The position numbers were made by a program, and so were the translations under genes. Of a stretch of 64,000 nucleotides of DNA, positions 13,701-34,116 are shown piece by piece. The stretch lies in contig JAFUBQ010000001.1 of assembly GCA_017460085.1 (NCBI GenBank), positions 62,001 to 126,000 on the forward strand. The letters are read 5' to 3'. The notes under the pieces are model-generated. The model worked only from the letters and a program-made list of their open reading frames with translations, made no database searches and was not told the DNA's origin. Each line of letters opens with the position of its first letter. The first letter of the stretch is position 1. Source of the DNA: Alphaproteobacteria bacterium (lineage in GTDB: Bacteria > Pseudomonadota > Alphaproteobacteria > RF32 > CAG-239).

Positions 13701-16700
13701 ATGAAACTAAAGTTTAAGAATCAAGAATTTCAAACCGATGCCGTGAATGCGGCGGTGGAGCTGTTCAAAGGCCAAGAAAAAGCCAACATGACTTTTTCGA
13801 TTGCCGATAACTCCGCGCAAGCCTCTTTTTTGCAAAATGAATTCGGTTTCGGTAACAAGTTGGTGTTAGATGAGGAAACTATAAACAACAATCTTCATGC
13901 AATCCAAAAGGCTCATTCTCTGCCACAAACCAACATTGACGGCATTAAGGCGGTGCCGCTTTCAATCGAAATGGAAACCGGAACTGGCAAAACTTTCGTT
14001 TATACCAAAACAATTTTGGAGCTTAACCACCGCTACGGCTTTACAAAGTTCATTATTGTTGTGCCGAGTGTGGCTATTCGCGAGGGCGTAAACAAGTCAT
14101 TTCAGGTTACGGAAGAATATTTCAAAAATCAGTATGACAGCGTGCCGTACCGCTATTTTATTTATAATTCGGCAAAACTCTCGGATGTCCGCACTTTCGC
14201 AACTTCAAGCAATATCGAGATTATGATTATCAATATTGACGCGTTCAAAAAAGCCGAAAACGTTATCAACCAAGAACAGGATAAACTTAACGGCGAAACG
14301 GCTATGCGCTATATTCAGGACACAAATCCGGTTGTGATTATTGACGAGCCGCAAAGTGTTGATAATACGCCAAAGGCAAAGGAAGCCATCGCGATGCTTA
14401 ATCCGCTGTGCGTTTTGCGTTATTCCGCCACCCACCGCGAAAAGCAGAATCTTGTCTATCGTTTGACACCGGTTGATGCGTACCAAATGGGCTTGGTTAA
14501 GCAAATCAGCGTTATTTCAAACTCGGTTATTAACGATTCAAACAAGCCGTATATCGCCTTAAAAGACGTTTCAAACGCCAACGGCTTTTCGGCGAAAATT
14601 GAGATTGATGTGGAAGATGAAAACGGTCATGTTACCCGTAAAGTCATAACGGTCAAGCCGAATGACGACTTATTTATGAAATCCGGTCACCGCAAAATTT
14701 ATGACGGTTACGTTGTCGCCGGTATTGATTGCACCAAAGGTTTTGAGGGCGTGGAATTTGCTAATTCCGAATATGTTGCCTTAGGTAAAGCCATCGGTAG
14801 CGTTGATGAAAACGTTTTGAAGCGTGCGCAAATTTTTCAAACTATCAAAACGCACCTCGATAAAGAACTGCGCTATTTTGATATGGGTATTAAGGTTTTG
14901 TCGCTGTTCTTTATTGATGAAGTTAAAAAATATCGCCAAGAAGACGGAAGCAAGGGCATTTATGCCGAAATGTTTGAAGAATGCTATAACGAGCTGATAA
15001 ACAGGCCGAAATATGCTATTTTGAAAACAAAATTTGATACAGACGTAAATAAAGCTCATGACGGTTACTTCTCCCAAGATAAAAAAGGTAAATATAAGGA
15101 TACCAAAGGCGATACGCAGGCTGATGACGACACCTACAATACCATCATGAAAGATAAAGAGTGGCTGTTGTCGTTTGAATGTCCGCTCCGCTTTATTTTC
15201 TCGCACTCGGCGTTAAAAGAGGGCTGGGATAATCCGAATGTCTTTCAAGTTTGCACTTTGATTGAACAAAAGTCGCTGTTTACTTGCCGCCAAAAAGTCG
15301 GGCGCGGTCTAAGACTTTGCGTAAATCAAGACGGCGAGCGAATTGAAGATAAAGATATTAACGTATTACACGTTATCGCTAATGAGAGTTTTGCCGAATT
15401 TGCCGAGAAACTGCAAAAAGAAATTGAAGACGAAACCGGCGTTCGCTTTGGTATGTTCGAGTTGGATATGCTTATCGGCTTTACTTATGATGAAGAAGTC
15501 GAGGTTGAGCGTAAAGTTAGCGAAAGCGAGGCCACCGCTATTGTGGAAGATTTACAAAAATTCGGCGTAATTGATAATGTCGGATATGTTAAACCGGAAA
15601 TTCAACCGGAAGAAGTTAAGATTGAAAATATACCGATACCGGAGCCGGTAAAAGCTCACGTTCAAGAAATGATAAAGACTTCACGGCCTGTTTCGGTTGC
15701 CGCGCTTGTAAATACCTCTTATAAGGAAAAAGTCGTTGAGAAAAAGGCTTTTGATTACGAGCAAGCCGTCGCTATCATGGAAGAATTGAAAGAAAAGAAA
15801 GTTATCGACAATAAGGGCAAGATTAAAGACACGATAAAAGCTCAGCTTGCCGCCGGTACGCTTAATTTAAGCGAACGGTGGTCTAAAGCCGCGCAACGTG
15901 CCGTTTTGCAATCTATGAACAAAGCGGAAAACAAACTCAATATTCGCGATGCTTCCAAAGATGTAACGGTTAAACTCAATAAACGCGCCTTATTGTCGCC
16001 GGAATTTATGGAATTGTGGAATAAAATCAAGCAAAAGACGACATACCGTGTCCAATTTGATTTGGATAAGCTGATAGCGCAAAGTATCATAGATATTAAG
16101 AGAATGCCTGAAATTGCCTCGGCACGCTTGGTAAGTCAATCGGCTTCGCTTGATATTCAAAAATCCGGTATCACTACGCAAACCGGCTCAATGTATGCCC
16201 AAAACTTAGAAAAGAGTTATGACGTTTTACCGGATATATTGCGTTTAATCTCAACCAAAACACTATTGAAACGTTCCACAATAAATAAAATCATTCAAGA
16301 AAGCGGACGTGCCACCGACTTTTTGAAAAATCCGCAAGAGTTTTATGAAAAGGTTTTGGAAATTATCCAACGTAACCGCCACGCTTTAGCTATTGACGGT
16401 ATAAAATATATCAAACTTGCCGGCGAAGAATATGCCGTGCAAGAGATTTTCTCAAGTGAAGAACTGATTGCTAACCTTGAACGTAATGCTGTTGCGGTTA
16501 AAAATAGCGTTTATGATTATGTTATTTATGACAGTAGTACGGTTGAAAAGCCGTTTGCCGTTGCTTTGGACGAAGATCCAGATGTTAAGATGTTCTTCAA
16601 AATACCAAGCCGTTTCAAGATTGACACGCCTATCGGCACATATAATCCGGACTGGGCGGTTTATTTAGAGAAAAACGGCGAACAAAAACTGTATTTCGTG

Positions 16701-16853
16701 CTTGAAACAAAAGGTACAAACCTATTCTACGGCTTGCGTCCGGAAGAACAACAAAAAATCCATTGCGGCGCACAGCATTTCAAAGCTCTTGATGGTGTTG
16801 TTTATTCCGAAAAACCGATTAGAAACTGGCAGGAATTTAAGAAAACGGTGTAA
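13701..16853 (+). CDS. res: Type III restriction endonuclease/helicase subunit (Res)
   Basis: 1050 aa. An SF2 helicase with Walker A ETGTGKTFVY (about residue 93), a DEPQ box (IIDEPQS, about 214), SAT motif (YSATHRE, about 237) and motif VI QKVGRGLR (about 533). The C-terminus has a PD-(E/D)xK nuclease, PDWAVYL ... LETKG (about residues 983-1010). With Mod it moves along DNA and cleaves when two unmodified sites meet. It lies in one operon with mod and a downstream helicase. Confidence 0.94.
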   Translation: MKLKFKNQEFQTDAVNAAVELFKGQEKANMTFSIADNSAQASFLQNEFGFGNKLVLDEETINNNLHAIQKAHSLPQTNIDGIKAVPLSIEMETGTGKTFVYTKTILELNHRYGFTKFIIVVPSVAIREGVNKSFQVTEEYFKNQYDSVPYRYFIYNSAKLSDVRTFATSSNIEIMIINIDAFKKAENVINQEQDKLNGETAMRYIQDTNPVVIIDEPQSVDNTPKAKEAIAMLNPLCVLRYSATHREKQNLVYRLTPVDAYQMGLVKQISVISNSVINDSNKPYIALKDVSNANGFSAKIEIDVEDENGHVTRKVITVKPNDDLFMKSGHRKIYDGYVVAGIDCTKGFEGVEFANSEYVALGKAIGSVDENVLKRAQIFQTIKTHLDKELRYFDMGIKVLSLFFIDEVKKYRQEDGSKGIYAEMFEECYNELINRPKYAILKTKFDTDVNKAHDGYFSQDKKGKYKDTKGDTQADDDTYNTIMKDKEWLLSFECPLRFIFSHSALKEGWDNPNVFQVCTLIEQKSLFTCRQKVGRGLRLCVNQDGERIEDKDINVLHVIANESFAEFAEKLQKEIEDETGVRFGMFELDMLIGFTYDEEVEVERKVSESEATAIVEDLQKFGVIDNVGYVKPEIQPEEVKIENIPIPEPVKAHVQEMIKTSRPVSVAALVNTSYKEKVVEKKAFDYEQAVAIMEELKEKKVIDNKGKIKDTIKAQLAAGTLNLSERWSKAAQRAVLQSMNKAENKLNIRDASKDVTVKLNKRALLSPEFMELWNKIKQKTTYRVQFDLDKLIAQSIIDIKRMPEIASARLVSQSASLDIQKSGITTQTGSMYAQNLEKSYDVLPDILRLISTKTLLKRSTINKIIQESGRATDFLKNPQEFYEKVLEIIQRNRHALAIDGIKYIKLAGEEYAVQEIFSSEELIANLERNAVAVKNSVYDYVIYDSSTVEKPFAVALDEDPDVKMFFKIPSRFKIDTPIGTYNPDWAVYLEKNGEQKLYFVLETKGTNLFYGLRPEEQQKIHCGAQHFKALDGVVYSEKPIRNWQEFKKTV

Positions 16854-16856
16854 AAT

Positions 16857-19439
16857 ATGGAAGAAACTAAGCCGTATCGTTTTGTGTCCGAATTTGCCGC
16901 TATGGTGGAAGCCAGACGGTTGGCAAGTTTCCGTAATGACGATAATTTGCTCGCGGTTTATGCTTCCTCAAAAATTAAAGTATTACCTTATCAAATAGCC
17001 GCGGCGCGATTTGCCTTACGTTCAAAACTGATTAAAGGCTGTATCTTGTGTGATGAGGGTTCTCTCGGCAAAACTTATGAGGCTTTGCTTGTGGTAGCTC
17101 AGCGGTGGTATGAGGGAAAAGAACATATATTAGTCGTTATACCGGCAAATTTGACGGCTCAATGGCAACAAAAACTTGATGAAGAATTCACTTTACCGGT
17201 TATCAAGTTGGAAGAATATACCGCCGACAGTAAAGGTATTTGCCTTGTAACGTATGATGACGTTATTCGCGAGGCAGAAAAAATCAAAAGTATTCGCTGG
17301 GATTTAGCCGTGTTTGATGAGGCAGATTTCCTATTTAAGCCGGACAATAAATCGGTAATAGCCATTAAAGACGCGGTCGGCGATGCTTTCAAACTATTAT
17401 TGACGCCGACACCGATAACAATGAGTATCATGGACATTTACGGACTGATACATTTTATTGATGAAAGTGTTTTGCCGGATGCTGACAGCTTTTATCGTCG
17501 GTATTTTAGAAAACCAGAAAACTATCCGGAGCTATCGAACTGGGTATCGCAATTTGCTTTTCGTACTCTCAAAAGTCAAGCAAGCCAGTATGTGAACTTT
17601 ACGCGCCGCTTGCCGGTTGTTTTGAACTATGTGCCTAAAGATGATGAAAAGAAGATTTATATCTTAACCGAAAAATACTTAAATTTAGCTGAAAAGCAGG
17701 CTTATCCGCAAATGGATAATTATCAACTGACTTTGATGTTTTACCACATTTTGGCCTCATCACCACAAGCATTTGCCACAATGTTGGAAGCACCTATTGA
17801 GCGAACACAAGGCGATGAACGTGTTATTTTGGAATCAATGCGCGATATGGCGGCAAAAATTACGCAAACCGCCAAAATGGAAGAATTTCTAAAAGCTATT
17901 AAAACGACATTTGCACACTTAAAATTGCGTAAAGAAACACAAAAAGCGATTGTGTTCGTGGATAATCTTGCCACCGTGCCAGTTTTGGCAAATTTGCTTA
18001 AAACCGCCGGATATAATGTCATCAAGCATACAGAAAATGATGCTCTGCCACGTTTTCGGGCAGAAAAAGATTTGCAAATTTTAATTTGTAATGATGCTAT
18101 GGCCAAAGGACTGGATATTGAATACTGTCCTGTGGTTATCAATTATGATTTACTTTATAATGCTGTGGAAATGGAACAGCGTATCTGTCGTTGCCACCGA
18201 CAAGGCCAGCAATCCGATGTTTTAGTTATCAATCTTTTAAGCAAAGAAAATATCTCGGATGTTCGTATTTTGGAGCTTATAAACAAGCGTACTCTGCAAT
18301 TTGAGGGCATTTTCGGTATGTCGGACGATATTGTCGGTAATTTTGATGTTAAACTGGAAGATGTTTTGCAAAAACGCCGTACGCTTAGTGATATACGCGC
18401 AGATATGGAAACAAACTTGGAAGTAAACCGCGAGCCGAATGAGCGCATTGTTTCAGCGGCTGAAAGTTCTCTCTTTACCACGTTTACCAAAGATATTGCC
18501 GAGAAAGTATCGATTTCGCCGAAATACATAGAGGAACAAGCTGAATTCTTAAATAAGGATTTATGGGAAGTTGTGAAGTTTTACTTTGCGACAAAGCATC
18601 CGGAATATGTGATCGATGACTTCAATCAAACGCTGACTTTACCGGACGATGAAGAATTGCCGCACATGTTTTACTATTACACCGGCACAAGAAATGTGCC
18701 ATACACCGGTCGCAGGACTTATGGAATGAGTAAAGATTTTAAGCCGGCCGCAGGGCGCATCACTTTAACATCCGTGCTTGTTCGTGGTATTTTACAAGAA
18801 ATATCATGCTCTGACAAAGCGGACATTAAAACCGTTGAGCCAACAGAAAAATGCAATATAAAGTTCTATAACATCGTCTTACGTAATCGCCGCCGGCAGT
18901 ATTTATCAGAGTATGACATTTTGGTTGGTACGACACCTGATGGACGGCTCATGACTGATGAGGAATGCCAAAAAATTATCAATCAACCGGTTAGTGAATT
19001 TATAGCTGAAGAAAAGAGGAATCCGTATTGGCTAAAAACGACTGGCGGTTCATCGCGAGATTTGTTAGATACACGCATCCAGCGCGACCTTAAGGAACGT
19101 TATGTAAATGATTATACCAAAAAGTTTGATACGGATGTTGATTTAATTAAAATAAAAGCCAGCCGCCAAAAATCTGTCCTAGAGCAAAACATTTCAGAAG
19201 CAAGGCAAGAGGTTAAAAAAATTCGTGAGACAATATCCTCCGCTTCAGACCGGCTCACGGAATTAAGAATTCAAAAACAGCTGAATGTCGCTGAAAAAGA
19301 GCTTAAACGAAAAGAAGAAGGCTTGTTTTTAGATCAGGCCCGAATTGATGTCGCCGCCGAAGATGAAATAGACCTCATCAGAGGCGTTGACGGTATAGAA
19401 TTTGACCTTTATCAAATTTTTGAGGCTAATTTATATTAA
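16857..19439 (+). CDS. SNF2-type DEAD/DEAH helicase, third gene of the type III RM operon
   Basis: 860 aa. Its ATG lies three bases after the res stop (TAAAATATG), so expression is coupled. Walker A is in DEGSLGKTYEALL (about residue 66), Walker B in VFDEADF (about 150), an LTPTP motif III follows, and the second RecA lobe ends in the arginine motif QRICRCHRQGQQSD (about 440-453), a hallmark of SNF2/RapA-like translocases. The last about 130 residues are coiled-coil rich. Classical type III systems have only mod and res, so this is an accessory subunit; DISARM-type systems carry a comparable SNF2 protein. Precise role unknown. Confidence 0.8.
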   Translation: MEETKPYRFVSEFAAMVEARRLASFRNDDNLLAVYASSKIKVLPYQIAAARFALRSKLIKGCILCDEGSLGKTYEALLVVAQRWYEGKEHILVVIPANLTAQWQQKLDEEFTLPVIKLEEYTADSKGICLVTYDDVIREAEKIKSIRWDLAVFDEADFLFKPDNKSVIAIKDAVGDAFKLLLTPTPITMSIMDIYGLIHFIDESVLPDADSFYRRYFRKPENYPELSNWVSQFAFRTLKSQASQYVNFTRRLPVVLNYVPKDDEKKIYILTEKYLNLAEKQAYPQMDNYQLTLMFYHILASSPQAFATMLEAPIERTQGDERVILESMRDMAAKITQTAKMEEFLKAIKTTFAHLKLRKETQKAIVFVDNLATVPVLANLLKTAGYNVIKHTENDALPRFRAEKDLQILICNDAMAKGLDIEYCPVVINYDLLYNAVEMEQRICRCHRQGQQSDVLVINLLSKENISDVRILELINKRTLQFEGIFGMSDDIVGNFDVKLEDVLQKRRTLSDIRADMETNLEVNREPNERIVSAAESSLFTTFTKDIAEKVSISPKYIEEQAEFLNKDLWEVVKFYFATKHPEYVIDDFNQTLTLPDDEELPHMFYYYTGTRNVPYTGRRTYGMSKDFKPAAGRITLTSVLVRGILQEISCSDKADIKTVEPTEKCNIKFYNIVLRNRRRQYLSEYDILVGTTPDGRLMTDEECQKIINQPVSEFIAEEKRNPYWLKTTGGSSRDLLDTRIQRDLKERYVNDYTKKFDTDVDLIKIKASRQKSVLEQNISEARQEVKKIRETISSASDRLTELRIQKQLNVAEKELKRKEEGLFLDQARIDVAAEDEIDLIRGVDGIEFDLYQIFEANLY

Positions 19440-19481: not shown

Positions 19482-21329
19482 TTATCTTCCACCTCTAGAA
19501 AGTGGAGCGGCCGTCTGAATATACGACTGAAGTTGTCGTTCAGAAACCTGGATGACTTTACCACAGCATGGATTAAAATCTTTATTTCCATAAACTATCC
19601 AAATAACATTCTTACCCTTTAAATCTTCTTTAGGCATTGTTCCTGGGCATGGATATCCGTCTGTAAAAATAATTTTATTCACTTCTTTTTTCTTAGAAAA
19701 TGCCCGGACAGCCGCATCCCAGTTTTCAGTCCATTGAGATTTTGCCGTAATTTGAAAATGATCAATATCCTCTTTTGTCTTTATTTCTTTGAAATCATAA
19801 ACGAACTCATCAAAGCAACCGACCTTTAATTTAGAGGATTTGAGTAACGGTTTAAGTTGTCTTAAAAATTCACGTAACAAGCGAATATTTACAGAACCGC
19901 TCACATCCAACATGACTTCCGTATCCGGACGGCCTTCATCTTCCAATTCTTCCACCCGAGCCATATAGTCGTTTTCAGAACCGGAACGACGATAGGACCA
20001 ACGATCACGCTCTTCATCAAAAGATTTTTTAAGCATTTTTTTCCAATCAACCACCGGTGTTTGAGTTTCCCCAACATCCCCGAGGGTGGTATGATCATTT
20101 GATTGACGGAGGCTTCCTTTTATCCTGTTTAATTGCTCGCGCACCTGTTCGGCCATCTCATGACGTTTTTCTTGATTTTCTGCCAAGAAGCCTTTTTCAT
20201 ACGCATCCATGTTTTCATCTTGCGGTATAGGAGCTTCTTTTTCTTGAGGTTCGCCTTGCTGATCCTCTTTAACTTCTTTTTGCCCCATGGCTTCTTTCAG
20301 CTTATCCCATAAACTTTTCTTTTTGGATTCTTCCTGTTTTCGTTGTTCTTCACGTTCTGCCTGTTCAACCGCTTCTTTCCAAATATCATGTGTATCGTGG
20401 CCTACTTGTTCATCTTCATTGTCCCAATCGATATTGCTGTCATCCCAGTCGGTGTCTTCTGATTGAGAGGAAGAACCGGATTGCGAACGTTGACCACCTT
20501 TTTGAGGTTTAGAGGATCCTTGTTGATTGTCGCTTGATTGTTCGGAATTTGAATCAGATTGATTCTCGTCTCCCTGACCGGAAGAACTGTTTTGATCAGA
20601 GTTTGAATCACCATCTTGAGATTGATCTTTCTGTTGTTCGGATCCTTCCGAGCCGTCTGATGAATTTTTGTTTTGTTCATCTTGATTTTCCGAACCGTCT
20701 GATTGTTGATCGGATTGTTCTTGTCCCTTTTGCCCGTCTTGATCCTGAGGCTGGTCTTGTCCGGATTGATTTTGTCCGTCTTGATCCTGAGGTTGTTCCT
20801 GTTCAGGCTGATTTTGTGCATCCTGATCCTGAGGCTGGTCCGTCCCACCGGATTGTGATTGTTGTTGCTGTTGATCTTGCTCTTGATTTTGCCCTTTTTC
20901 CTGATCGCGCTGTTCTTTCTTTTTCAAGAGTTTTTCATACATTTCTTCGGCCGAATGGTTGACAGCTTCTGCAATATCAACACCACCTTCCGTTAATGGC
21001 AATTTTTCATTTTTCAGGATTTGGTTGATAACAGAATCGGTTGCGATATTCCACAACCTTTGATTACGGCCCTTACTGCGCAAAATGTGGTTAAAAGCGA
21101 CATGCATCACTTCATGCGCAAAGACAAATTGTTTCTGTTCATCCGATAAAGTGCTAAAAAACTTTGGAGAATAGATAATGCGATGTCCGTCTGTGGCCGC
21201 TGTTCCAATTCTATCATCAGGAACAACCGATAAAGGCCGCATTGTCACACCGAGCAAAGGGAACTTGGCCAAAACCTGTTCTTTGATATATTGAATTTCT
21301 TCCTGTTGCTCTGTGACCATATTAGGCAT
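19482..21329 (-). CDS. HExxH metallopeptidase / vWA-like protein (DUF2201 type)
   Basis: 615 aa in three parts. The N-terminal putative metallopeptidase (residues 1-150) has HEVMHVAFNH (about residue 72), a HExxH zinc site. A long hydrophilic linker rich in Gln, Asp, Ser and Gly follows (about 145-300, with many QDQDGQ units). The C-terminal vWA-like domain has the MIDAS motif DVSGSV (about 478) and a later FTDGYP Asp. Proteins of this build pair with MoxR-type AAA+ ATPases. Here the ATPase is two genes upstream in the same operon, and the gene starts 2 nt after the intervening one. It is the last gene of the DGR operon and converges with the helicase gene. Confidence 0.85.
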   Translation of the reverse strand: MPNMVTEQQEEIQYIKEQVLAKFPLLGVTMRPLSVVPDDRIGTAATDGHRIIYSPKFFSTLSDEQKQFVFAHEVMHVAFNHILRSKGRNQRLWNIATDSVINQILKNEKLPLTEGGVDIAEAVNHSAEEMYEKLLKKKEQRDQEKGQNQEQDQQQQQSQSGGTDQPQDQDAQNQPEQEQPQDQDGQNQSGQDQPQDQDGQKGQEQSDQQSDGSENQDEQNKNSSDGSEGSEQQKDQSQDGDSNSDQNSSSGQGDENQSDSNSEQSSDNQQGSSKPQKGGQRSQSGSSSQSEDTDWDDSNIDWDNEDEQVGHDTHDIWKEAVEQAEREEQRKQEESKKKSLWDKLKEAMGQKEVKEDQQGEPQEKEAPIPQDENMDAYEKGFLAENQEKRHEMAEQVREQLNRIKGSLRQSNDHTTLGDVGETQTPVVDWKKMLKKSFDEERDRWSYRRSGSENDYMARVEELEDEGRPDTEVMLDVSGSVNIRLLREFLRQLKPLLKSSKLKVGCFDEFVYDFKEIKTKEDIDHFQITAKSQWTENWDAAVRAFSKKKEVNKIIFTDGYPCPGTMPKEDLKGKNVIWIVYGNKDFNPCCGKVIQVSERQLQSYIQTAAPLSRGGR

Positions 21330-21331
21330 TA

Positions 21332-21802
21332 TTATACTTTCAATTCAAAAATGAGTGACTTTGTTGCATGAGAAACTGCATCAGCATCAGCAACAGGCAT
21401 AACAATTTGAACTGCATCAGGCAATTTACTTGCCATAATTTGCCTATCCTTCAGCAGAGGAATAAATTTTGCCTGTTCATCAGCCGAAACCTTATCCAGC
21501 CCGGTTATAACAAGCAACATCTTCTTTTTCAGTCTTTGTTTTACAGATTCCAATTGTTCGATGTGCTTGATTAAGTCTTGGACTGAGACATTGGCCTCTA
21601 TCTTCGGATACTCTGCAAAATCGGAGGCTTTAGCCCCGACAATCAATAAAGCTCTGTCATCAATAAATTCCGTTTTGATTTGATTAATCTTTTCGGCCTT
21701 TGTTTTGGCGGGTTTCGGTCCTGCCCATCCTATATCAGGTTGGATGACTAAGCCATTCTTGCGTTTCTTCCGATTTTTTTCAAGCATTTCTTTTAATGAC
21801 AT
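21332..21802 (-). CDS. Small partner protein between the AAA+ ATPase and metallopeptidase/vWA genes
   Basis: 156 aa. The N-terminal about 40 residues are basic and Pro-rich. The rest alternates beta and helix (RALLIVGAKASDFAEY, KMLLVITGLDKVSADEQ, VQIVMPVADADAV), resembling a P-loop or receiver-like fold without a Walker A motif. It starts one base after the ATPase stop and ends 2 nt before the vWA gene, so it is very probably a dedicated component of the same complex. I do not recognise the family. Confidence 0.65.
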   Translation of the reverse strand: MSLKEMLEKNRKKRKNGLVIQPDIGWAGPKPAKTKAEKINQIKTEFIDDRALLIVGAKASDFAEYPKIEANVSVQDLIKHIEQLESVKQRLKKKMLLVITGLDKVSADEQAKFIPLLKDRQIMASKLPDAVQIVMPVADADAVSHATKSLIFELKV

Positions 21803-21803
21803 T

Positions 21804-23480
21804 TTATCTTCCTCCCTTTAAGTTATGTAGAGTGGCGATCTGCATGGCGCGTGTATCATCCTTGCCCACCCAAACAGAGTCAAAAATCGCACGATTTTCT
21901 GCGCCTAACTGTGTTTCAACAAATTGACGTACTTTTCCGACTTGTTTCGGTGTTGCATGACGCAAACTCAACGCCAACGCCAAACGGGCATCCTGTCCCG
22001 TAGGAATATCCTCGCGGGTATATTCGCCCTCGATCACTTCTTCCAAAGATAGCGGCGGATCTTCAGCATATGACAATAAACTGGCCGCCAATTCATGCCC
22101 GATATCAGCTTCAAAAATCTCACGGCGCATCACACCCTTATTAGCATAGATTTTATCTGATACCTTTTCCCATTTTCGTGGGTCAAGAGCAAACTTACCG
22201 GGGTTTTCTTCATCATACTCGGAATAGAACACTTGCCGTCCGTAGGTTGCCACAAAACTGGCGACTAACGGATGGATGTTTAAGCGATCCGGATCTTCCG
22301 GATGGCTCTTGCTGTGTTCCGAGCCCCATTCCAACCAATCCTGAATATTCAAGTCCAAGTAAATATGGCTTAAACGTCTGAACAACGGGGCCGGCATGTT
22401 ATAAGCGGCTCCTGATTCTTCCTTGCTGTTACCGGCCAACACGACCACAGCATTATTAGGCAGTTTGCCAACGCCCTGGGCAATTGATTTTTCCAACGCT
22501 ACGTGATAGATCAAACGTTGTGTTGTTTCTCGCGCATTGGTCACGTCATCGATATATAAGACGTGCTGTTTGTCCGGTTCTGTTTCGCATTTTCTGCACA
22601 AATCCGTGTACCACTTAGGCGGCACCCAAACACCACCGGAGGCCCCATCGGCTCCCACGCCGTTTGGATAGATTGTTTTACCGATAACATCTTCAGGCAA
22701 AATTCCGTTACACAGCGTAATTGAGGTCAAATCCGGATCAATTTCTTTCACACGTTGTGATTTACCGACACCGGACGGGCCATGGAGCATGAAGCTCATT
22801 CCGTTTTGAATATAGAAGTTTATTTGGTCCTTGACGGGCATAGGCTCATCAGATACCTCGATCCCGTATTTCTTCTGTCTGGCTGTCGGTTCTTTCTTTT
22901 TAACAGGTTCTTTTCTTTCCGGCTCTTCTTCATAGTTTCTTGATACCGTTCTTGCGGCTATACGTCCGGTCGGCTCCATTTCTTTGGCAAAATAAGTGTC
23001 CAAATAGTGCTTTATGGACGTTTTGGAAAAGTCGCCATCATATGAATCTTTCGTATCAAATTGAATACCGGCGAATAAGCATTTTTTGGCGACCATTGTG
23101 CCGCTTCTATCCATCAGCCATTCTATCGGTTGGACCTCAACCCAGTATGGTTCTCCGGACTCTACCTGTTCCCCTGTAGATAGCTTGCTATCGCCGTCAG
23201 CAGGCCGTCCAGGAACACGGATATACCTTTTGCCATCCATTTCATATTCCTGATAGGATGTGGCCTTAAAAGACGTGCCATAATCGCCTAAATCAACTGA
23301 ATCAAATGTGTAATTTTTTCCGGTCGGACGGAGAGATCTTGAATCATGTAATCTTTCTAATTTCTCGCTGGTGCGCTCATCGGCGACCGTTTGCGGGTAT
23401 TCCCCATATTCCGCTACGCGGATTCCAGCGATAGCCCTCGCTTCGCTCGGGCTGATTTTAGATGCCTCCGATGGAGGCAA
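21804..23480 (-). CDS. DGR target, C-terminal portion: MoxR-type AAA+ ATPase with DUF6273-like domain
   Basis: 558 aa if started at TTG 23480, which has no ribosome site. Upstream the same frame reads ISARPALPPSEASK, matching the TR frame (KISARP), so this is really the continuation of the lectin-like protein at 23755-23537, cut off by a stop and a frameshift in the VR. Residues 20-165 (from EYGEYPQTV to DTYFAKEM) form the DUF6273-like domain seen after the variable module in related DGR targets. The AAA+ part has Walker A GPSGVGKS (about 235), Walker B VLYIDDVTNA, sensor VVLAGNS, and an arginine-finger region PLFRRLSH. It acts with the downstream vWA/metallopeptidase. Confidence 0.8.
   Translation of the reverse strand: MPPSEASKISPSEARAIAGIRVAEYGEYPQTVADERTSEKLERLHDSRSLRPTGKNYTFDSVDLGDYGTSFKATSYQEYEMDGKRYIRVPGRPADGDSKLSTGEQVESGEPYWVEVQPIEWLMDRSGTMVAKKCLFAGIQFDTKDSYDGDFSKTSIKHYLDTYFAKEMEPTGRIAARTVSRNYEEEPERKEPVKKKEPTARQKKYGIEVSDEPMPVKDQINFYIQNGMSFMLHGPSGVGKSQRVKEIDPDLTSITLCNGILPEDVIGKTIYPNGVGADGASGGVWVPPKWYTDLCRKCETEPDKQHVLYIDDVTNARETTQRLIYHVALEKSIAQGVGKLPNNAVVVLAGNSKEESGAAYNMPAPLFRRLSHIYLDLNIQDWLEWGSEHSKSHPEDPDRLNIHPLVASFVATYGRQVFYSEYDEENPGKFALDPRKWEKVSDKIYANKGVMRREIFEADIGHELAASLLSYAEDPPLSLEEVIEGEYTREDIPTGQDARLALALSLRHATPKQVGKVRQFVETQLGAENRAIFDSVWVGKDDTRAMQIATLHNLKGGR
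23410..23479 (-). other. Three stem-loops immediately downstream of the VR
   Basis: TGCCTCC-GAT-GGAGGCA (23463-23479, 7-bp stem, 3-nt loop), AGCCC...GGGCT (23433-23453, with an inner GC/GC stem around TTC) and TCCGC-TAC-GCGGA (23410-23422). The first begins 5 nt beyond the conserved GGGCGCGCC block. DGR targets are known to need a hairpin/cruciform a few bases after the mutagenic-homing start; no equivalent hairpin follows the TR. Confidence 0.7.
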
Positions 23481-23484
23481 AGCA

Positions 23485-23596
23485 GGGCGCGCCGAGATTA
23501 ATTGCGTATATTCGAGTAAGTCCAGTACTTAACGCCCTAATAGTGGACGCAACGCACGTCTTCATAAAAATAAGAAGACGCGGACCAAAAGGCACA
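23485..23596 (-). repeat. DGR variable repeat (VR)
   Basis: About 112 bp aligned to the TR at 25135-25244. From the TGTGCC codons to the GGCGCGCC block the two copies differ almost only where the TR coding strand has A, for example AAT to TAT, AAC to GAC, AAC to CAC, AAG to TAG, GAT to GTT, AAC to TAC, AAA to ATA. Three substitutions are not at A (TCT to TTT, G to T in a GAA codon, CGT to CGC). Two extra T are present next to the 3' conserved block (AATTAATC against AAAATC). Confidence 0.92.
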
Positions 23597-23755
23597 AGTT
23601 AGATCATCTTCAGAAGTACGATCACCACCACCGGTCATATAACCACCCAATATGACTGTCAGATCCGTTGGCGCAACCTTCGTGCCATAACGCTTCATTA
23701 CATCCAGGGCACCATCGCCCCATATCTGATCTTCCTTCAAAAACGTAAAGTCCAT
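23537..23755 (-). CDS. DGR target, N-terminal lectin-like variable module (interrupted)
   Basis: 72 aa starting MDFTFLKEDQIWGDGALDV behind a strong AGGAGG ribosome site. This is the N-terminal part of a C-type-lectin-like DGR variable domain ending in the typical WSASSY...VRCVHY stretch. It is truncated by TAG at 23537-23539, exactly where the TR has AAG (Lys). Reading through the TAG would give GVKYWTYSNIRN before a TAA created by a 2-nt insertion; without both lesions the frame runs into the AAA+ ATPase. It is therefore a split or phase-OFF gene. In the intact form it would be a variable sensor fused to a MoxR-type ATPase, about 650 aa. Confidence 0.8.
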   Translation of the reverse strand: MDFTFLKEDQIWGDGALDVMKRYGTKVAPTDLTVILGGYMTGGGDRTSEDDLTCAFWSASSYFYEDVRCVHY

Positions 23756-23800: not shown

Positions 23801-23844
23801 TATTATTCTGCAACAATTTTTTTATTATTCTGCAACAATTTTTT
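23801..23844 (-). repeat. 22-bp tandem duplication at the 3' end of the RT gene
   Basis: The unit TATTATTCTGCAACAATTTT plus two T is present twice with a 22-bp period. The inner copy encodes the last RT codons (KKIVAE and stop); the outer copy is non-coding. Looks like a recent replication-slippage or repair duplication. Confidence 0.85.
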
Positions 23845-24871
23845 TTGTACGGCGTTTCTCGTGTTTTAAGGAAGCCAAGCGGTTGCTGATATGGATCCAG
23901 TTCTTAGTCCCCTTTAAATGCCCGCGAAACGAGGCTAAACGGACGTCTAGGTACTCATCATCCAGGACATCATTCAAATAGTAATGACGGATGGTTTTCA
24001 GGTATTTTCTTTGGCGGCTTTTGGCCGATCCACGCAAAGATTTGATAATCTTACCGGTGGCCGATAATTTGTGGTTAAATCCCAAAAAATCAATACCATC
24101 CGATAACAGCCCGATTTGTGTCTTTTGATTTAAGGACAGCTTTAATCCTTTGACATATTCATCAATTTGCTTTCTACACAGCTGTAATTTGGCTTTATCT
24201 TCGCTTAGGATAACAAAATCATCCATATAGCGCACATAACAGGACATACGCAGACGTTCTTTAATCAGCCTGTCCATTCCATTCAAATAAAGCAAGGCAA
24301 ACCATTGGCTGGTCTGATTACCCAAAGGCAATCCGATAGAACCGTGTGATTCAATGATCATCCTTAAAAACCACATCTCATCAGCCGAAAAACCGGTCTT
24401 GGCCAACAGTTCCAATAAAATCTCATGATTGATGCTTTGAAAATATTTCCTGATATCGCATTTCAAAAAATAAATCCGATTTGTTTTGTTTTTGACATAC
24501 AGCTTTCGCATAAATGAATGCAATCTCTCTACCGCAAAATGCGTTCCTTTTTCTTTGCGTGAAGCGGCATTGTCATAAATCAGGTGTCTCTCTAGCCGGG
24601 GAGCTACCGAATGCTGACAAAAGCACATTAAAACCACTCTGTCTTTGTAGGGTAACGCTTCAATTAATCTTTTCTTCGGATCATAAATGGTAAAGGATCT
24701 GTAAGGACTTAAACGATATGTTCTAGCCGTCAATTGTTTGACCAGATTGGTGACATTACGCCCCAATTCAATTTCAAACATGATTGTTCCCCGTTTATGT
24801 TGCTTACTCAGCCGACATGCTTTGTGGGCCGCAACCAAGTTTTCAAATGTAAATATCTCTTCTATCTTCAT
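23825..24871 (-). CDS. DGR reverse transcriptase
   Basis: 348 aa. The active-site box is YVRYMDDFVILSED (about residues 216-229, YMDD). Motif 4 is GLPLGNQTSQ (about 183), the (I/L)GxxxSQ signature that separates DGR reverse transcriptases from retron and group II intron enzymes (PQG). An upstream KCDIRKYFQSINHEIL block supplies the first catalytic Asp. It copies TR RNA with errors at adenines and directs cDNA into the VR. The gene sits between the TR (24,872-25,244 side) and the target gene. The start at 24871 has AAGAGAA upstream. Confidence 0.95.
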   Translation of the reverse strand: MKIEEIFTFENLVAAHKACRLSKQHKRGTIMFEIELGRNVTNLVKQLTARTYRLSPYRSFTIYDPKKRLIEALPYKDRVVLMCFCQHSVAPRLERHLIYDNAASRKEKGTHFAVERLHSFMRKLYVKNKTNRIYFLKCDIRKYFQSINHEILLELLAKTGFSADEMWFLRMIIESHGSIGLPLGNQTSQWFALLYLNGMDRLIKERLRMSCYVRYMDDFVILSEDKAKLQLCRKQIDEYVKGLKLSLNQKTQIGLLSDGIDFLGFNHKLSATGKIIKSLRGSAKSRQRKYLKTIRHYYLNDVLDDEYLDVRLASFRGHLKGTKNWIHISNRLASLKHEKRRTKKIVAE

Positions 24872-25134
24872 CGTTCTCTTTTGTTGTAAAAAAGGGGTAC
24901 CCGATAATATATTAAAACAAGACGTGTCAATATATGTGATACCCCATAAAACGCAAACTTTGCATTTTTACTTCTTCCATCGCACTGAGCATTAAGCTGA
25001 CAGCGGTTAGAAAAGAGAAAGTTTCCTTTGCTTTAAGCACAGGCGGATTTTTTCTAAAATCCACATATCTGGCTTGTTTCAGAGATCTGTGTCTTTGCCG
25101 ACCACATTTTGTTGTTCTCCTTAAAAGCAAATCG

Positions 25135-25244
25135 GGGCGCGCCGAGATTTTACGTTTATTCGTGTTATTCCAGTTCTTATCGCCCTTATAGTTGACGCAA
25201 CGCACGTTTTCATTTTCATTTGAAGACGCGGACCAAGAGGCACA
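25135..25244 (-). repeat. DGR template repeat (TR)
   Basis: Reading leftwards, an adenine-rich template whose translated frame is Asn/Lys-rich (NENENVRCVNYKGDKNWNN). Its 3' end carries the same ATCTCGGCGCGCC block as the VR, the presumed homing start. It sits between the Avd-like and RT genes, as in many DGRs. A reading frame crosses it (25319-24927), but this is probably incidental or part of the TR RNA. Confidence 0.92.
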
Positions 25245-25284
25245 ATACGCATTATCAACTTTCCCTCTTTTGACCCTTTCGGAT

Positions 25285-25878
25285 TCAAAACTTTTTTGTT
25301 TGCCATTGTTTATCATCACTTTTTTTCCATGCCATAATCAGGTTAATAATTTCACCAACCTGAATGGATATTTGTTTATACTGCCTCATCAAAATGCACT
25401 TTGCATTTTCCGACAGCATTGCAACATATGCCACCATTTTTAACTGAATGAGTGCATCCGTTTGATGCTTTTCTCGCTGGGCTTTATGTTCGGGGCTATC
25501 CATCCGAATAAAATTAGCATTCAATAAATTTTCCAAAGCCGACAAGCTGTAATTTTGCATCCGATTGATAAAAACAGGTCTAAATTTGGCCGGCGATTTA
25601 ACCGTCACGGCTAGAATATAAGCCCCCAGTTTTTTAAGTTTCGTTATAACAATTAATTCGCTTGAATCGCTTGGAATTGTTGAAATTTGATGCAATTCCG
25701 GATCTTCTTTGGTTGCTTGATCCAGCGCATCAGCATATTTAAATCGTTTGTCATTAGCTGTTGCAAATGCTTGCTTTACAGAAGCAACATCCACAGGTAG
25801 CATTAATTGCCCCGAAACGTTTTCTACCTTCCTGGGCATATGAATTCTTTGATTACGACTGACTTGATCTTTACGCAT
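25285..25878 (-). CDS. avd: DGR accessory variability determinant (Avd-like four-helix protein)
   Basis: 197 aa, longer than common Avd proteins (about 120 aa). The C-terminal about 95 residues fit the S23-like four-helix bundle: KFRPVFINRMQNYSLSALEN, a helix with Arg/Lys/Gln, and the closing INLIMAWKKSD, which resembles the GxWxxS end of Avd family proteins. Avd forms a basic pentamer that binds the RT and TR RNA. The N-terminal about 100 residues are an extra domain I do not recognise. It is immediately upstream of the TR in the same direction. Confidence 0.75.
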   Translation of the reverse strand: MRKDQVSRNQRIHMPRKVENVSGQLMLPVDVASVKQAFATANDKRFKYADALDQATKEDPELHQISTIPSDSSELIVITKLKKLGAYILAVTVKSPAKFRPVFINRMQNYSLSALENLLNANFIRMDSPEHKAQREKHQTDALIQLKMVAYVAMLSENAKCILMRQYKQISIQVGEIINLIMAWKKSDDKQWQTKKF

Positions 25879-30263: not shown

Positions 30264-31688
30264 CTATTCAAGATTGCAAATCATATCCAAAAGTTCCCAT
30301 TTAGTCGGGGTTTGCTTTTTCAAATCGTCCGGCGTTTGAGTAAACACGCTGTCTTTTGAAATATCGCGAGTGTACGTTTTTCCGTTTGTAGTAATAGTCG
30401 TAGTGGTTACAGCCGTCACTGTATTTGGAAGATCAAGATTTACTCGTTCATATGACATGTAATTCGTAGCAGGATTTGCCACAGTATAAACTGTTTTATA
30501 CTGTGTCGTACCCGCACCGGCATAAAGCATTACACCTTCTGTGCGCTGATATGTACCGCTCACAATTTTTGTTTTTGAGTAATTATACAATCCATCTTCT
30601 TTTAAGTATCCCCAAGCACCAACATCTAATACATCTTCAGAAATAAGTTGCGGATTGTTATTATTGATTGAATAAAGTTTTCCAGTTGTTGTCAGTGCAT
30701 ATTGCCCAAAAAGTTTTGATATTTGGTCACCGACATCGCCCGAATAATATGGAGTAGTTCGGTTATTGTAAAAGCACTTGTAACGTGATCCTTTTGCAAA
30801 ATAAAAGTATCCTGAACTTCCGCAAGACATCATACTCCAGCCATTTTCTGTATCAAGTTGCACCATTTCATTTTTTTGAAAGCCTCCGCTAACACCTGTT
30901 CGACTGATATAGTAAGGATATCCATCGCGAATACCGGCACAATACGCGCTATCATTATATGCTGTTGCAACATCGGTCCATACCCCACCATTATCAAGGA
31001 CAGAACAAATTAATGTTGACTGGTTATTAAAGCTCATAAGCGCACCGCTTCTTATACCGAAAAAGCCGCTGATTTTTGTGTAACCTGCAGTATTATCGGT
31101 ATACGCATTTTTGAAGAAGCTGTATAATTTACCGCCTTTTATCATATTTCCATAACCAACTTGTGTAACACCACCGTCAGTCGTTTTTTGTGTTAGTGTT
31201 ACAGGCGTGGCATAAGTGTTGTAATAGTAAAGATTTCCATTAATGCCAACGTATCCAGCATAGCCGCCGTATGCCGCATAGCTCGAACAAGCAACGCCGT
31301 CTAACATGTCACCATTACTATTATAAACGATGTAAACCATGCCGCTACTTGAGGTTTGAGACCACGTCCAACCATAGGCTTTTCTGAGCTGATCTCTTAA
31401 TAGGTTTAATCCGCCTTTACCTTCCTCGGACTTCTTCATATAAGTGGTCGCAATGTTATTGCCCTCGGCATCAGCTGTCGCTTTTGCCGCGGTGTCGTTG
31501 GTTCCGAGCTTACCGGCAAGAGCCGAATAAACACCGCCGGAAGATACAGCGTTTGCAGATCCTGATGTTGGAGCCGCATCAACTTTCACTTTGCCGGCGA
31601 CCGAGGCCGAGCCTGTCGGGATATTATCTGTATATGGATACAGGTAATCGCCGCGTTTGTTCTTTAGTTTGACACTTTTGTTTGCCAT
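30264..31688 (-). CDS. Tail fibre protein with shared N-terminal module and propeller-like C-terminus
   Basis: 474 aa. Residues 1-75 contain the module common to four neighbouring genes: KLKNKRGDYLYPYT, GKVKVDAAPTSGSANAVSSG, KLGTNDTAAKATADAEGN. The remainder has repeated Gly/Tyr-rich strands with GKLYSxxNN units and KEDGLYNYS, suggesting an RCC1- or propeller-like adhesin head. Likely a receptor-binding fibre of the tail. Downstream of three paralogues on the same strand. Confidence 0.68.
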   Translation of the reverse strand: MANKSVKLKNKRGDYLYPYTDNIPTGSASVAGKVKVDAAPTSGSANAVSSGGVYSALAGKLGTNDTAAKATADAEGNNIATTYMKKSEEGKGGLNLLRDQLRKAYGWTWSQTSSSGMVYIVYNSNGDMLDGVACSSYAAYGGYAGYVGINGNLYYYNTYATPVTLTQKTTDGGVTQVGYGNMIKGGKLYSFFKNAYTDNTAGYTKISGFFGIRSGALMSFNNQSTLICSVLDNGGVWTDVATAYNDSAYCAGIRDGYPYYISRTGVSGGFQKNEMVQLDTENGWSMMSCGSSGYFYFAKGSRYKCFYNNRTTPYYSGDVGDQISKLFGQYALTTTGKLYSINNNNPQLISEDVLDVGAWGYLKEDGLYNYSKTKIVSGTYQRTEGVMLYAGAGTTQYKTVYTVANPATNYMSYERVNLDLPNTVTAVTTTTITTNGKTYTRDISKDSVFTQTPDDLKKQTPTKWELLDMICNLE

Positions 31689-31761
31689 GAGTTTCTCCTG
31701 TTAGCTACCAATAAAAGAAGCCATACCGAGTGGTAGCGTTCCCGGTATGGCCTTTTTACAA

Positions 31762-32769
31762 TTAAAGTGCGGCTATTACTGTATAGCCAACCGGTTCTGA
31801 TCCTACAATTTCTGAAAAATCAAAAGCGGTTTCTGTTACAAGATCTCGGGAATATTTCGGTGCAGACGTATTGCCCGTATAGAACAAGTCTAACTGGTTT
31901 GCGTAACCCGAGTATATTCCGGTTGTAGATAAAGCTGTCTGAGTAGCCATCGCCGAAGTACTGGCTTTGTAGTGGATATATGAGTCATCGGGTTGTTTGA
32001 TGCGCATATACACATAGCCGGCATTATTCGGACCAGACGAGTGAACAATGTTTGCAGACAAACTGGTGTAACTTGTAGAATAATTTTTATAATACAAGTT
32101 TGAAAATTTCTTTGTCGTCTGTGAAACTGCGACGTAGCCCCAAGCCAACATAAAGCCTTTGGTATCACACGAAATACCGCTAAAACTGTACATATTGTTT
32201 ACACCAATCTGTGTCCAGCTCAGTCCGTCAGTACTTCTGTAAACCGTACTTTTACTGCTTACTCTGAAAATGGCGTAATAGTAATTTCCGCCGCCCCATT
32301 TAGGATAAACACTGAGAGACACATCCGCGGCCGCCGCATTGTTAAATGTGTAAGCCGTAGCTGTCCACGTTTGCAGGTCTGTTGACTGATAAACTTCGGT
32401 CGGACTGATAAGCATAATGTATTTATTATTTATAAAATATATTGCTTTACAGCCACTGTAGAGGGTAGCAACCGTATGTGTACCAGGCAGTCCGATGTCG
32501 AACCAGTCCTTGCCATTGGTTGTGTATTTGGCATAATCTTTCGTCATACAATAAAACATCGGCTTGTTATAAATAACACCGAGTTTGTGGTTGTAGGTAA
32601 CGTCAGAAAAGCCTTTTACAACATACCATTTGTTGGCATCTTCAGTCACAGCAAGAAGATATTTGTATTTGCTCGACCCATAGCGGATCGAAGCCATCAT
32701 CTTTGGCGAGCCGCCTTCATAATAAGGCACCGTATCTCCGAAATAAATCATTCTTCGCGAGAAAATCAT
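31762..32769 (-). CDS. Tail spike-like protein with Asp-box/sialidase-type repeats
   Basis: 335 aa from ATG 32769 (GAGGTGAC upstream), chosen instead of an upstream in-frame start at 32856 that lies inside the preceding gene. Several S-x-D-G-x-x-W-like units are present (TTNGKDWFDIG, QSTDLQTWTA, YRSTDGLSWTQIG), the signature of Asp-box beta propellers found in sialidases and phage adhesins. Probably binds or trims host surface glycans. Catalytic residues cannot be assigned. Confidence 0.65.
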   Translation of the reverse strand: MIFSRRMIYFGDTVPYYEGGSPKMMASIRYGSSKYKYLLAVTEDANKWYVVKGFSDVTYNHKLGVIYNKPMFYCMTKDYAKYTTNGKDWFDIGLPGTHTVATLYSGCKAIYFINNKYIMLISPTEVYQSTDLQTWTATAYTFNNAAAADVSLSVYPKWGGGNYYYAIFRVSSKSTVYRSTDGLSWTQIGVNNMYSFSGISCDTKGFMLAWGYVAVSQTTKKFSNLYYKNYSTSYTSLSANIVHSSGPNNAGYVYMRIKQPDDSYIHYKASTSAMATQTALSTTGIYSGYANQLDLFYTGNTSAPKYSRDLVTETAFDFSEIVGSEPVGYTVIAAL

Positions 32770-32779
32770 TGTCACCTCG

Positions 32780-33334
32780 CTATGCCTGAACAACAGCACC
32801 CACAACCCAGTTTGAGCCGTTATATTCATAAAGAATATCATAAGTTCCGGCCGCAAAGCTTGGTTGTGAGCCTGTGAAATACTTTGTCGTTCCGAGGTTA
32901 ATAGTGCGTGAGGTAGACAATGTCATTTGCACCAAGATTTGATGAAAAACGGTATTGTCGCTTACACTTGGCAAACTGAACGTAACAGTTCCTGTCGGCG
33001 CAATTCGGTTGACAGAGTTATCCGCCAAAGAAATTGTGCCGCTTGTTGCTAAGGTTGTAACCGGCATATTTTTCTTCAAATAAGTATTAACGATATTGTT
33101 TCCGCTTGCATCAGCAGTTGCTTTTGCCGCAGTTCCTGTTGTCGATAATTTACCAGCAAGGGCGGTATAAACCGCCCCTGACGTAATCGCATTATTTGAA
33201 CCTGAAGTCGGACTTGAATCCAATTGAACCTTTCCGGCCGTTGAAGTAGACGCGGTCGGAATGTTTTCCGTATATGGCTCTAGATATTCGCCGCTACGGT
33301 TTTTTAGTCTTACATTTTTAGCCACGATATCCAT
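32780..33334 (-). CDS. Tail fibre paralogue with shared N-terminal module
   Basis: 184 aa. Same N-terminal module as its neighbours (KNRSGEYLEPYTENIPTAS, AGKVQLDSSPTSGSNNAITSG, TAAKATADASGN). The C-terminal half is a short Thr/Ser-rich beta domain (TVTFSLPSVSDNTVFHQI) ending YNGSNWVVGAVVQA, similar to fibre tip domains. Likely a structural fibre segment next to the Asp-box protein. Confidence 0.65.
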   Translation of the reverse strand: MDIVAKNVRLKNRSGEYLEPYTENIPTASTSTAGKVQLDSSPTSGSNNAITSGAVYTALAGKLSTTGTAAKATADASGNNIVNTYLKKNMPVTTLATSGTISLADNSVNRIAPTGTVTFSLPSVSDNTVFHQILVQMTLSTSRTINLGTTKYFTGSQPSFAAGTYDILYEYNGSNWVVGAVVQA

Positions 33335-33342
33335 TCCTTACT

Positions 33343-34116
33343 TTAGTTCATTTCCTCGTAAGAAATAGCATCAGACAATTTTAAGTAAGTCGTCGAGATA
33401 GTATTTCCGTCTGCATCAGCGGTTGCTTTTGCGGCTGTTCCGGTTGTGGCCAACGCACCCACATCAGAAGCAGAAAGTGTCACATTTGAGGACAAAGGCT
33501 TTCCGTTAACCGTTCTTGTGGCAGGTACGTAGTTGGTCAAATCAACCTTTTCGGTTTCCAAAACAGCGACTTTATAGTAGCCGATTTGGATAAACCCGGC
33601 AGACTGAATGGCCGCAACCAGCGCATCATCTGTTGTATAAGTATAGGATGACGTTGTGCTTTCAACGGAGTAAATCCATAAATCAGGGACATTCTTTGCT
33701 TGAATATAGATGTTATCACCGATTTTGAACTCAGTAGAGGCCGCCGCATTTAAGGCAGTAACCATCGCCTGATAGTTCTGATAAGATGTTGCACGTGCGC
33801 GACCTTCAGCAATACTTTTGGCAGTATTAGCTGTTGTTTCCACCGCAGACAACTCTGATTTTGTGGCATAAGTTGAGGTAATCGTATTGCCACTGGCATC
33901 GGCAGTCGCTTTTGCCGCAGTTTCTGTTTTACCCAGTTTGTTATCCAAGGCAGTTTTGGCACCGCCGGAGGTCAACGCTTTGGTAGAGTTTGCGGTCGGT
34001 GTTGCTTCCAACTGTACCAAACCTTTGGCTGATGTTGTGGCATCAGGCACATTGGTTGTATACGGCTCTAAGTAGTCACCGGTCGCATTTTTTAATTTAA
34101 TTCTTTTATTTGCCAT
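33343..34116 (-). CDS. Tail fibre paralogue with two copies of the shared module
   Basis: 257 aa. Starts with KLKNATGDYLEPYTTNVP and carries TAAKATADASGN near residue 70; a second TAAKATADADGN stands near the C-terminus, so the module is at least partly duplicated. The middle has FKIGDNIYIQAKNVPDLWIY, a small beta domain. Likely trimeric fibre protein. Confidence 0.65.
   Translation of the reverse strand: MANKRIKLKNATGDYLEPYTTNVPDATTSAKGLVQLEATPTANSTKALTSGGAKTALDNKLGKTETAAKATADASGNTITSTYATKSELSAVETTANTAKSIAEGRARATSYQNYQAMVTALNAAASTEFKIGDNIYIQAKNVPDLWIYSVESTTSSYTYTTDDALVAAIQSAGFIQIGYYKVAVLETEKVDLTNYVPATRTVNGKPLSSNVTLSASDVGALATTGTAAKATADADGNTISTTYLKLSDAISYEEMN

Follow-up and report, generated by a model that had tools for sequence, protein, structure and literature searches.

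Can a diversity-generating retroelement (DGR) that rewrites a gene also switch that gene off, and later back on? The window, by which we mean the whole stretch of 64,000 nucleotides analysed here, raises this question with a DGR target gene that is cut by a stop codon and a frameshift inside the very region that the DGR diversifies. The first-pass annotation had proposed that homing could repair both lesions and turn a fused sensor-ATPase back on, random mutagenesis thus doubling as an ON/OFF switch.

The cassette lies entirely on the minus strand, in the order Avd-like gene (25285-25878), template repeat (TR, 25133-25245), reverse transcriptase (RT, 23825-24871) and target gene, which starts at the ATG at 23755; the TR is thus flanked by the Avd-like gene and the RT. 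The Avd-like accessory protein (197 aa) matches NCBIfam DivGenRetAVD (E 5.4e-5) and Pfam bAvd (E 1.1e-5), each under the curated cut-off, and its gene is kept at the equivalent position in the related cassettes L012-L014, L016, L103, L104, L115 and L116. The TR is 113 bp long and holds 35 adenines and four stop-capable codons (AAG, AAG, AAA, AAA). The RT, of 348 aa, is intact, with a YMDD box and an LGNQTSQ motif (Pfam RVT_1, E 7.7e-20). The target gene opens with a constant part (MDFTFLKEDQIWGD..., 23604-23755) that is conserved in all relatives, followed by a variable region (VR) of 115 bp (23483-23597) with an IMH-like GC-rich 3' end (23484-23499; ATCTCGGCGCGCCC, with one C>T at 23484). Inverted repeats directly 3' of the VR (23433-23478; GCCTCC-ATC-GGAGGC and AGCCC...GGGCT) match the DGR target hairpin in place and type, and a predicted stem, in which the IMH end pairs with AAGCGAGGGC, is present in most members of the window's cassette family. 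The downstream part of the target, a conserved sensor domain (about 185 aa) and a MoxR-like AAA+ ATPase, forms an ORF of 558 aa (21804-23480) that the lesions separate from the start. It is followed by a 156-aa protein without family match (p156, 21332-21802) and by a DUF2201 metallopeptidase-like/vWA-like protein of 615 aa (19482-21329; Pfam DUF2201_N, E 1.2e-28; DUF2201 VWA-like, E 6.9e-7), which is likely the partner of the ATPase. In the whole of its own genome (1.59 Mb, 100% complete, 23 contigs) the IMH sequence ATCTCGGCGCGCC occurs only at this TR and VR, and no second TR or VR was found there. The locus is a cellular DGR. It is adjoined by a type III restriction enzyme and a DrmD-like SNF2 helicase (13701-19439), a defence-island setting, and directly by prophage structural genes (27240-49143; tail fibre J-like, tape measure, portal, terminase). 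Among the latter, three adjacent ORFs (30264-34116) have a common N-terminal motif (VKLKNxxGDYLxPYT...), like repeated tail-fibre modules.

The two repeats are 82% identical over 96 nt (23502-23597 and 25150-25245, plus-strand coordinates), and their differences are concentrated at adenines: 14 of the 35 TR adenines are altered in the VR against 4 of the 78 other positions, a pattern that is not due to chance. Both lesions of the first-pass annotation were found where it had placed them. Codon 73 of the target frame is TAG (23539-23537) where the gapped alignment gives AAG in the TR, an A-to-T change at a TR adenine, and two T that the TR lacks (23501-23500) fall inside the AAAA run of the TR, a few bases ahead of the IMH. 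This insertion shifts the frame by +2 and adds a TAA as a further in-frame stop. The VR contains both lesions, and without the two T the frame continues into ISARPALPPSEASK and the ATPase ORF. The earlier description was incomplete in one respect, having missed four further VR changes at non-adenines (C>T at 23589, one G>T, one T>C, and the C>T in the IMH). The VR substitutions at adenine sites also lean strongly towards T (11 of 14) compared with those of the other cassettes (p 2.5e-4).

The fused frame that had been predicted on removal of the lesions exists in nature. A search of species genomes with the 558-aa ATPase ORF returned 15 loci, and in three of them (L012, L013 and L014, 96-97% identity) the same cassette, with a distinct VR allele in each, has one open frame into the ATPase. 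It reads MDFTFLKEDQIWGDDALDVMKRYGTKVAPTDLTVILGGYM...CASWSASS, then the VR, then SARPALPPSEASK..., with small differences, and goes on into the ATPase; the lesions are thus not fixed among related genomes, as they would have to be for the first-pass annotation to be refuted by its own criterion. The TR of L013 and its flanks are identical to those of the window (201/201 bp) and its RT is 99% identical. The L013 genome belongs to another genus, and those of L012 and L014 to another order, so the cassette moves between lineages. Since one identical TR occurs with an ON VR in L013 and an OFF VR in the window, both states are natural at the same locus. About 560 codons of the fused frame follow the VR, which therefore sits near the start of the target and not at its C terminus. 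Roux et al. explained the usual C-terminal VR by the keeping of cis elements out of coding sequence (PMC8144416); here the IMH and the inverted repeats lie within it.

In the mechanism that we propose, TR-derived cDNA would replace the stretch from the 5' homology (TTGTGCC...) to the IMH, within which both lesions of the window fall. With AAA and AAG codons in the TR (TAA in two members) and indels of 1-2 nt in the VR, a sizeable share of the products would lose the frame and with it the ATPase (OFF), and the remaining products would encode the complete protein with its sensor surface renewed (ON). Later homing could overwrite the lesions, which would leave the OFF state reversible for as long as RT, TR and IMH survive. 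In a BPP-1 laboratory assay, DGR homing repairs a defective reporter, including 18 missing bases (PMC12875486; also PMC3240598). In the window the RT, the TR and the Avd-like gene are undamaged and the IMH almost so, and homing could therefore still restore the frame. No conserved internal start with a Shine-Dalgarno site was found 3' of the VR across the family members, and OFF alleles are accordingly expected to be without ATPase. The fused frame, the lesions and, as described below, the recurring OFF alleles, the stop-capable TRs and the conserved ATPase are visible in the sequences; ongoing homing, a lack of ATPase from OFF alleles and actual reversal are our inferences. In the literature searched, we found no report of nonsense VR alleles or of DGR phase variation.

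OFF alleles recur. When the order, a sample of the class and two further orders were searched for the RT, four distinct cassettes emerged beyond the L012-L014 group and L016, which brought the RT-bearing cassettes to nine (window, L012, L013, L014, L016, L103, L104, L115 and L116); they were found through the RT or the ATPase and not picked by the state of the VR. Six of the nine carry stops or 1-2 nt indels inside the VR. Besides the window, these are L016, with an in-frame TAA in the TR itself and TGA in the VR; L103, with two separate +1 insertions; L104, with one -1 deletion, the in-frame TAA of its TR no longer being present in the VR; L115, with a TAA derived from AAA; and L116, with TAA, TAG and a further TAG, on a low-quality contig of a 68%-complete genome with ambiguous bases. 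Other members are independently OFF through DGR-type lesions that differ from one member to the next, and in this cassette family diversification often doubles as inactivation. No broken VR and no out-of-frame indel within a coding VR was seen in 21 control TR/VR pairs extracted by the same method, 15 of them viral metagenomic and six cellular from the same order (L105-L107, L059, L061, L062). Similarly, the 14 genes related to the target that have no intact RT close by are all open. The difference in OFF alleles gave a Fisher p of 1.4e-4 against the other DGRs (6/9 vs 0/21), which are not phylogenetically matched and whose codon composition explains why they show no nonsense, and a p of 8e-4 against the RT-less relatives (0/14); indels alone (3/9 vs 0/21) gave p 0.02. 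These values are indicative, as counts are small and loci related, L012-L014 and the window sharing nearly one cassette.

Substitutions in the VR fall at TR adenines in 83-100% of cases across the relatives and in 100% in L016, L103 and L104, where the lesions therefore look like fresh homing products; the indels in the VRs of L103 and L104 are most simply explained as made during homing. A further set of sensor genes (L017-L026, L108 and L110) has no RT of the window cassette's type in the genomes searched. Several of them contain a VR-like stretch in which most differences from the family TR are at adenines, and these are formerly diversified genes, all frozen ON. Degenerate RT remnants lie beside open target genes in L108 (genome G012) and L015, where the DGR was lost and the target kept ON.

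The frequency of OFF alleles is accounted for by the TRs, which keep stop-capable codons. In the window's cassette family, stop-capable and AAY codons stand at 27:60, against 1:188 in the control DGRs (p 2.5e-14), whose mutable codons are AAC/AAT; two family TRs (L016 and L104) even carry TAA. The use of AAC/AAU rather than AAA/AAG in TRs has been described as avoidance of stops (PMC12875486). When homing was simulated with the pooled substitution spectrum, a stop arose in 22-28% of products for most TRs and in 55-62% for the two with TAA, although these values may overstate the rate of the raw enzyme, as AAR-to-stop changes were measured at a rate of only about 1% for the BPP-1 RT (PMC12875486). 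The simulation predicts 3.06 nonsense-OFF alleles among the nine cassettes without selection, and four were observed. This match suggests that openness of the VR is unfiltered at the time of sampling.

The state of the ATPase tells a second part of the story. Across the OFF lineages pS is about 0.75 and pN 0.16-0.33, so the body of the ATPase is strongly constrained though the VRs are often broken. The gene looks like one that is needed in the long term yet often broken at a given time, which fits a stochastic ON/OFF locus and equally a heavy mutational load with horizontal rescue. The allele in the window looks old. Its four non-adenine VR changes, which come on top of the +2 insertion, compare with none in L012, one in L014 and three in L013. 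At sites where L012-L016 do not vary, six replacements are private to its ATPase half, one of them E312D in Walker B, which reads YIDDV in place of FIDEV; the equivalent count is zero for L012 and L014 and one for L013, and the vWA and p156 genes of the window have no such replacement. The ratio of replacement to silent changes is 11:5 on the window branch and 14:25 on the other branches (p 0.027). The OFF state of the window allele is probably not recent, its ATPase half having had time to drift, and with Walker B and other invariant sites replaced, repair of the frame may not restore ATPase activity. Of the idea that homing could switch the sensor-ATPase back on, the reversal remains plausible, given the intact RT, TR and Avd-like gene and lesions confined to the VR; the picture of a fresh allele poised for repair is not supported.

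These same changes are what an ordinary pseudogene would display, that is, a target that died once in the window and is decaying, the OFF alleles of the relatives being unrelated accidents. We take this to be a serious possibility, although we lean against it. The indel, the non-adenine changes and the drift of the ATPase speak for it; on the other side, the RT, the TR and the Avd-like gene are undamaged and hardly differ from their L013 counterparts, the 14 adenine-specific changes show that the DGR has been active, no stop interrupts the 558 codons of the ATPase frame, and OFF alleles recur in five other cassettes. ATPase damage or drift accompanies the OFF state in three of the six OFF members (the window, L116, and L016 with a C-terminal frameshift), which fits terminal loss as well as a reversible OFF state.

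Taken together, recurrent, tolerated and in-principle reversible self-inactivation by a DGR with stop-capable TRs is the best reading of these data, and we hold it to be rather probable; a repairable OFF state that recurs in the family is plausible. A stronger version, in which the locus is an adaptive ON/OFF contingency locus, seems to us unlikely. Here the ATPase would be costly or self-harming when ON, and selection would retain the stop-capable codons, so that the DGR would be both a diversifier and a phase-variation device, each homing event re-drawing the sensor and randomising its expression. Six of nine cassettes are OFF in the assembled, presumably major, haplotype, AAR codons stand at the same TR positions (GDK, NKR, RK) in strongly diverged TRs, two TRs hold TAA, and the ATPase has long been conserved despite VRs that are often broken. 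However, every RT-less relative is ON, so OFF is not favoured in itself; nonsense alleles are as frequent as expected without selection, with no clear excess; AAR codons may serve residues (K, E, Q, M, W) out of reach of AAY; and the ATPase is damaged or drifting in half of the OFF members. Thus, of the proposal that mutagenesis doubles as an ON/OFF switch, the recurrent inactivation stands, and a functional switch is not supported over a tolerated mutational load.

The genomes of the nine cassettes are probably all MAG assemblies, in which a hypervariable site can be misassembled, and a metagenome assembler may have joined different VR haplotypes, leaving a stop or indel that occurs in no cell. 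The hypervariability of the VR in populations makes such an artefact conceivable, but it is improbable given that none of the 15 viral metagenomic or six same-order cellular control pairs has a broken VR, that the TGA of L016 traces to the TAA of its own TR, and that the window genome is complete. That the ATPase would be made regardless, through recoding, programmed frameshifting or an internal start, is very improbable indeed: the three shifted alleles all belong to one direction class (-1/+2), but this has a chance of 1/4 for three events, stop-codon recoding is rejected because TAA, TAG and TGA all occur alongside frameshifts and the lesion sites differ, an independent internal start is rejected because no conserved downstream start has a Shine-Dalgarno site, and in-frame ON alleles exist.

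DGRs have been described as built for stop avoidance, and the window family does not avoid stops. Its variable stretch lies upstream of the catalytic part, and most natural alleles are broken while the catalytic part is conserved. Three questions become testable: whether a gene can be switched reversibly by hypermutation, by what means bacteria cope with the cost of receptors made at random, self-reactive ones for example, and what DGR load is tolerated in natural populations. For annotation, many such targets will appear split or as pseudogenes.

The ATPase has Walker A and Walker B motifs and matches the AAA_5 and AAA_3 profiles under the cut-off; similar phage and plasmid proteins annotated as MoxR are distant (25-28% identity), and a single-protein search of IMG/VR gave no relatives. 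Profile searches gave no confident family match for p156, PADLOC no match for the target, the vWA protein or p156, and a PDB sequence search nothing significant. The structure model of the full-length target is poor (pLDDT 49). That of the sensor domain is better (pLDDT 72; 48-88 over residues 1-95) and had no significant Foldseek match in the PDB or BFVD; its residues 1-95, the VR part, matched several C-type lectins weakly, with Z of 2.4-3.2 only.

By analogy, the sensor-ATPase device may parallel the MoxR-vWA ternary systems, which have been put forward as conflict systems and part of which have DGR-diversified sensors (PMC7159879, PMC10907252). Like them, the window brings together a MoxR-like AAA+ ATPase, a vWA-type protein and a DGR-diversified sensor. 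It differs from them in having the VR in one frame with the ATPase instead of with the vWA protein, in that no VMAP, iSTAND, FtsH or propeller component was recognised in the window, and in its hosts, alphaproteobacteria that have small genomes and are known from MAGs of the rumen and gut. With the BPP-1-type DGRs the locus shares an Avd-like gene, a TR, a DGR-type RT, adenine-specific differences, an IMH and an inverted repeat 3' of the VR. Unlike them, the window family has its VR near the N terminus and its cis elements in coding sequence, TRs with AAA, AAG and TAA codons, frequent OFF alleles and out-of-frame indels. DGRs typically, though not necessarily, place the VR at the C-terminal end of the target (PMC8144416) and exclude stops by AAY codons in the TR (PMC12875486). 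Finally, as in phase-variable contingency loci that work by slipped-strand events or an invertase, a localised, recurrent and in-principle reversible mutation toggles the frame. In the window, reversal and selective value are conjectural and, unlike in those loci, the mutator is a reverse transcriptase, which rewrites the sensor at the same time.
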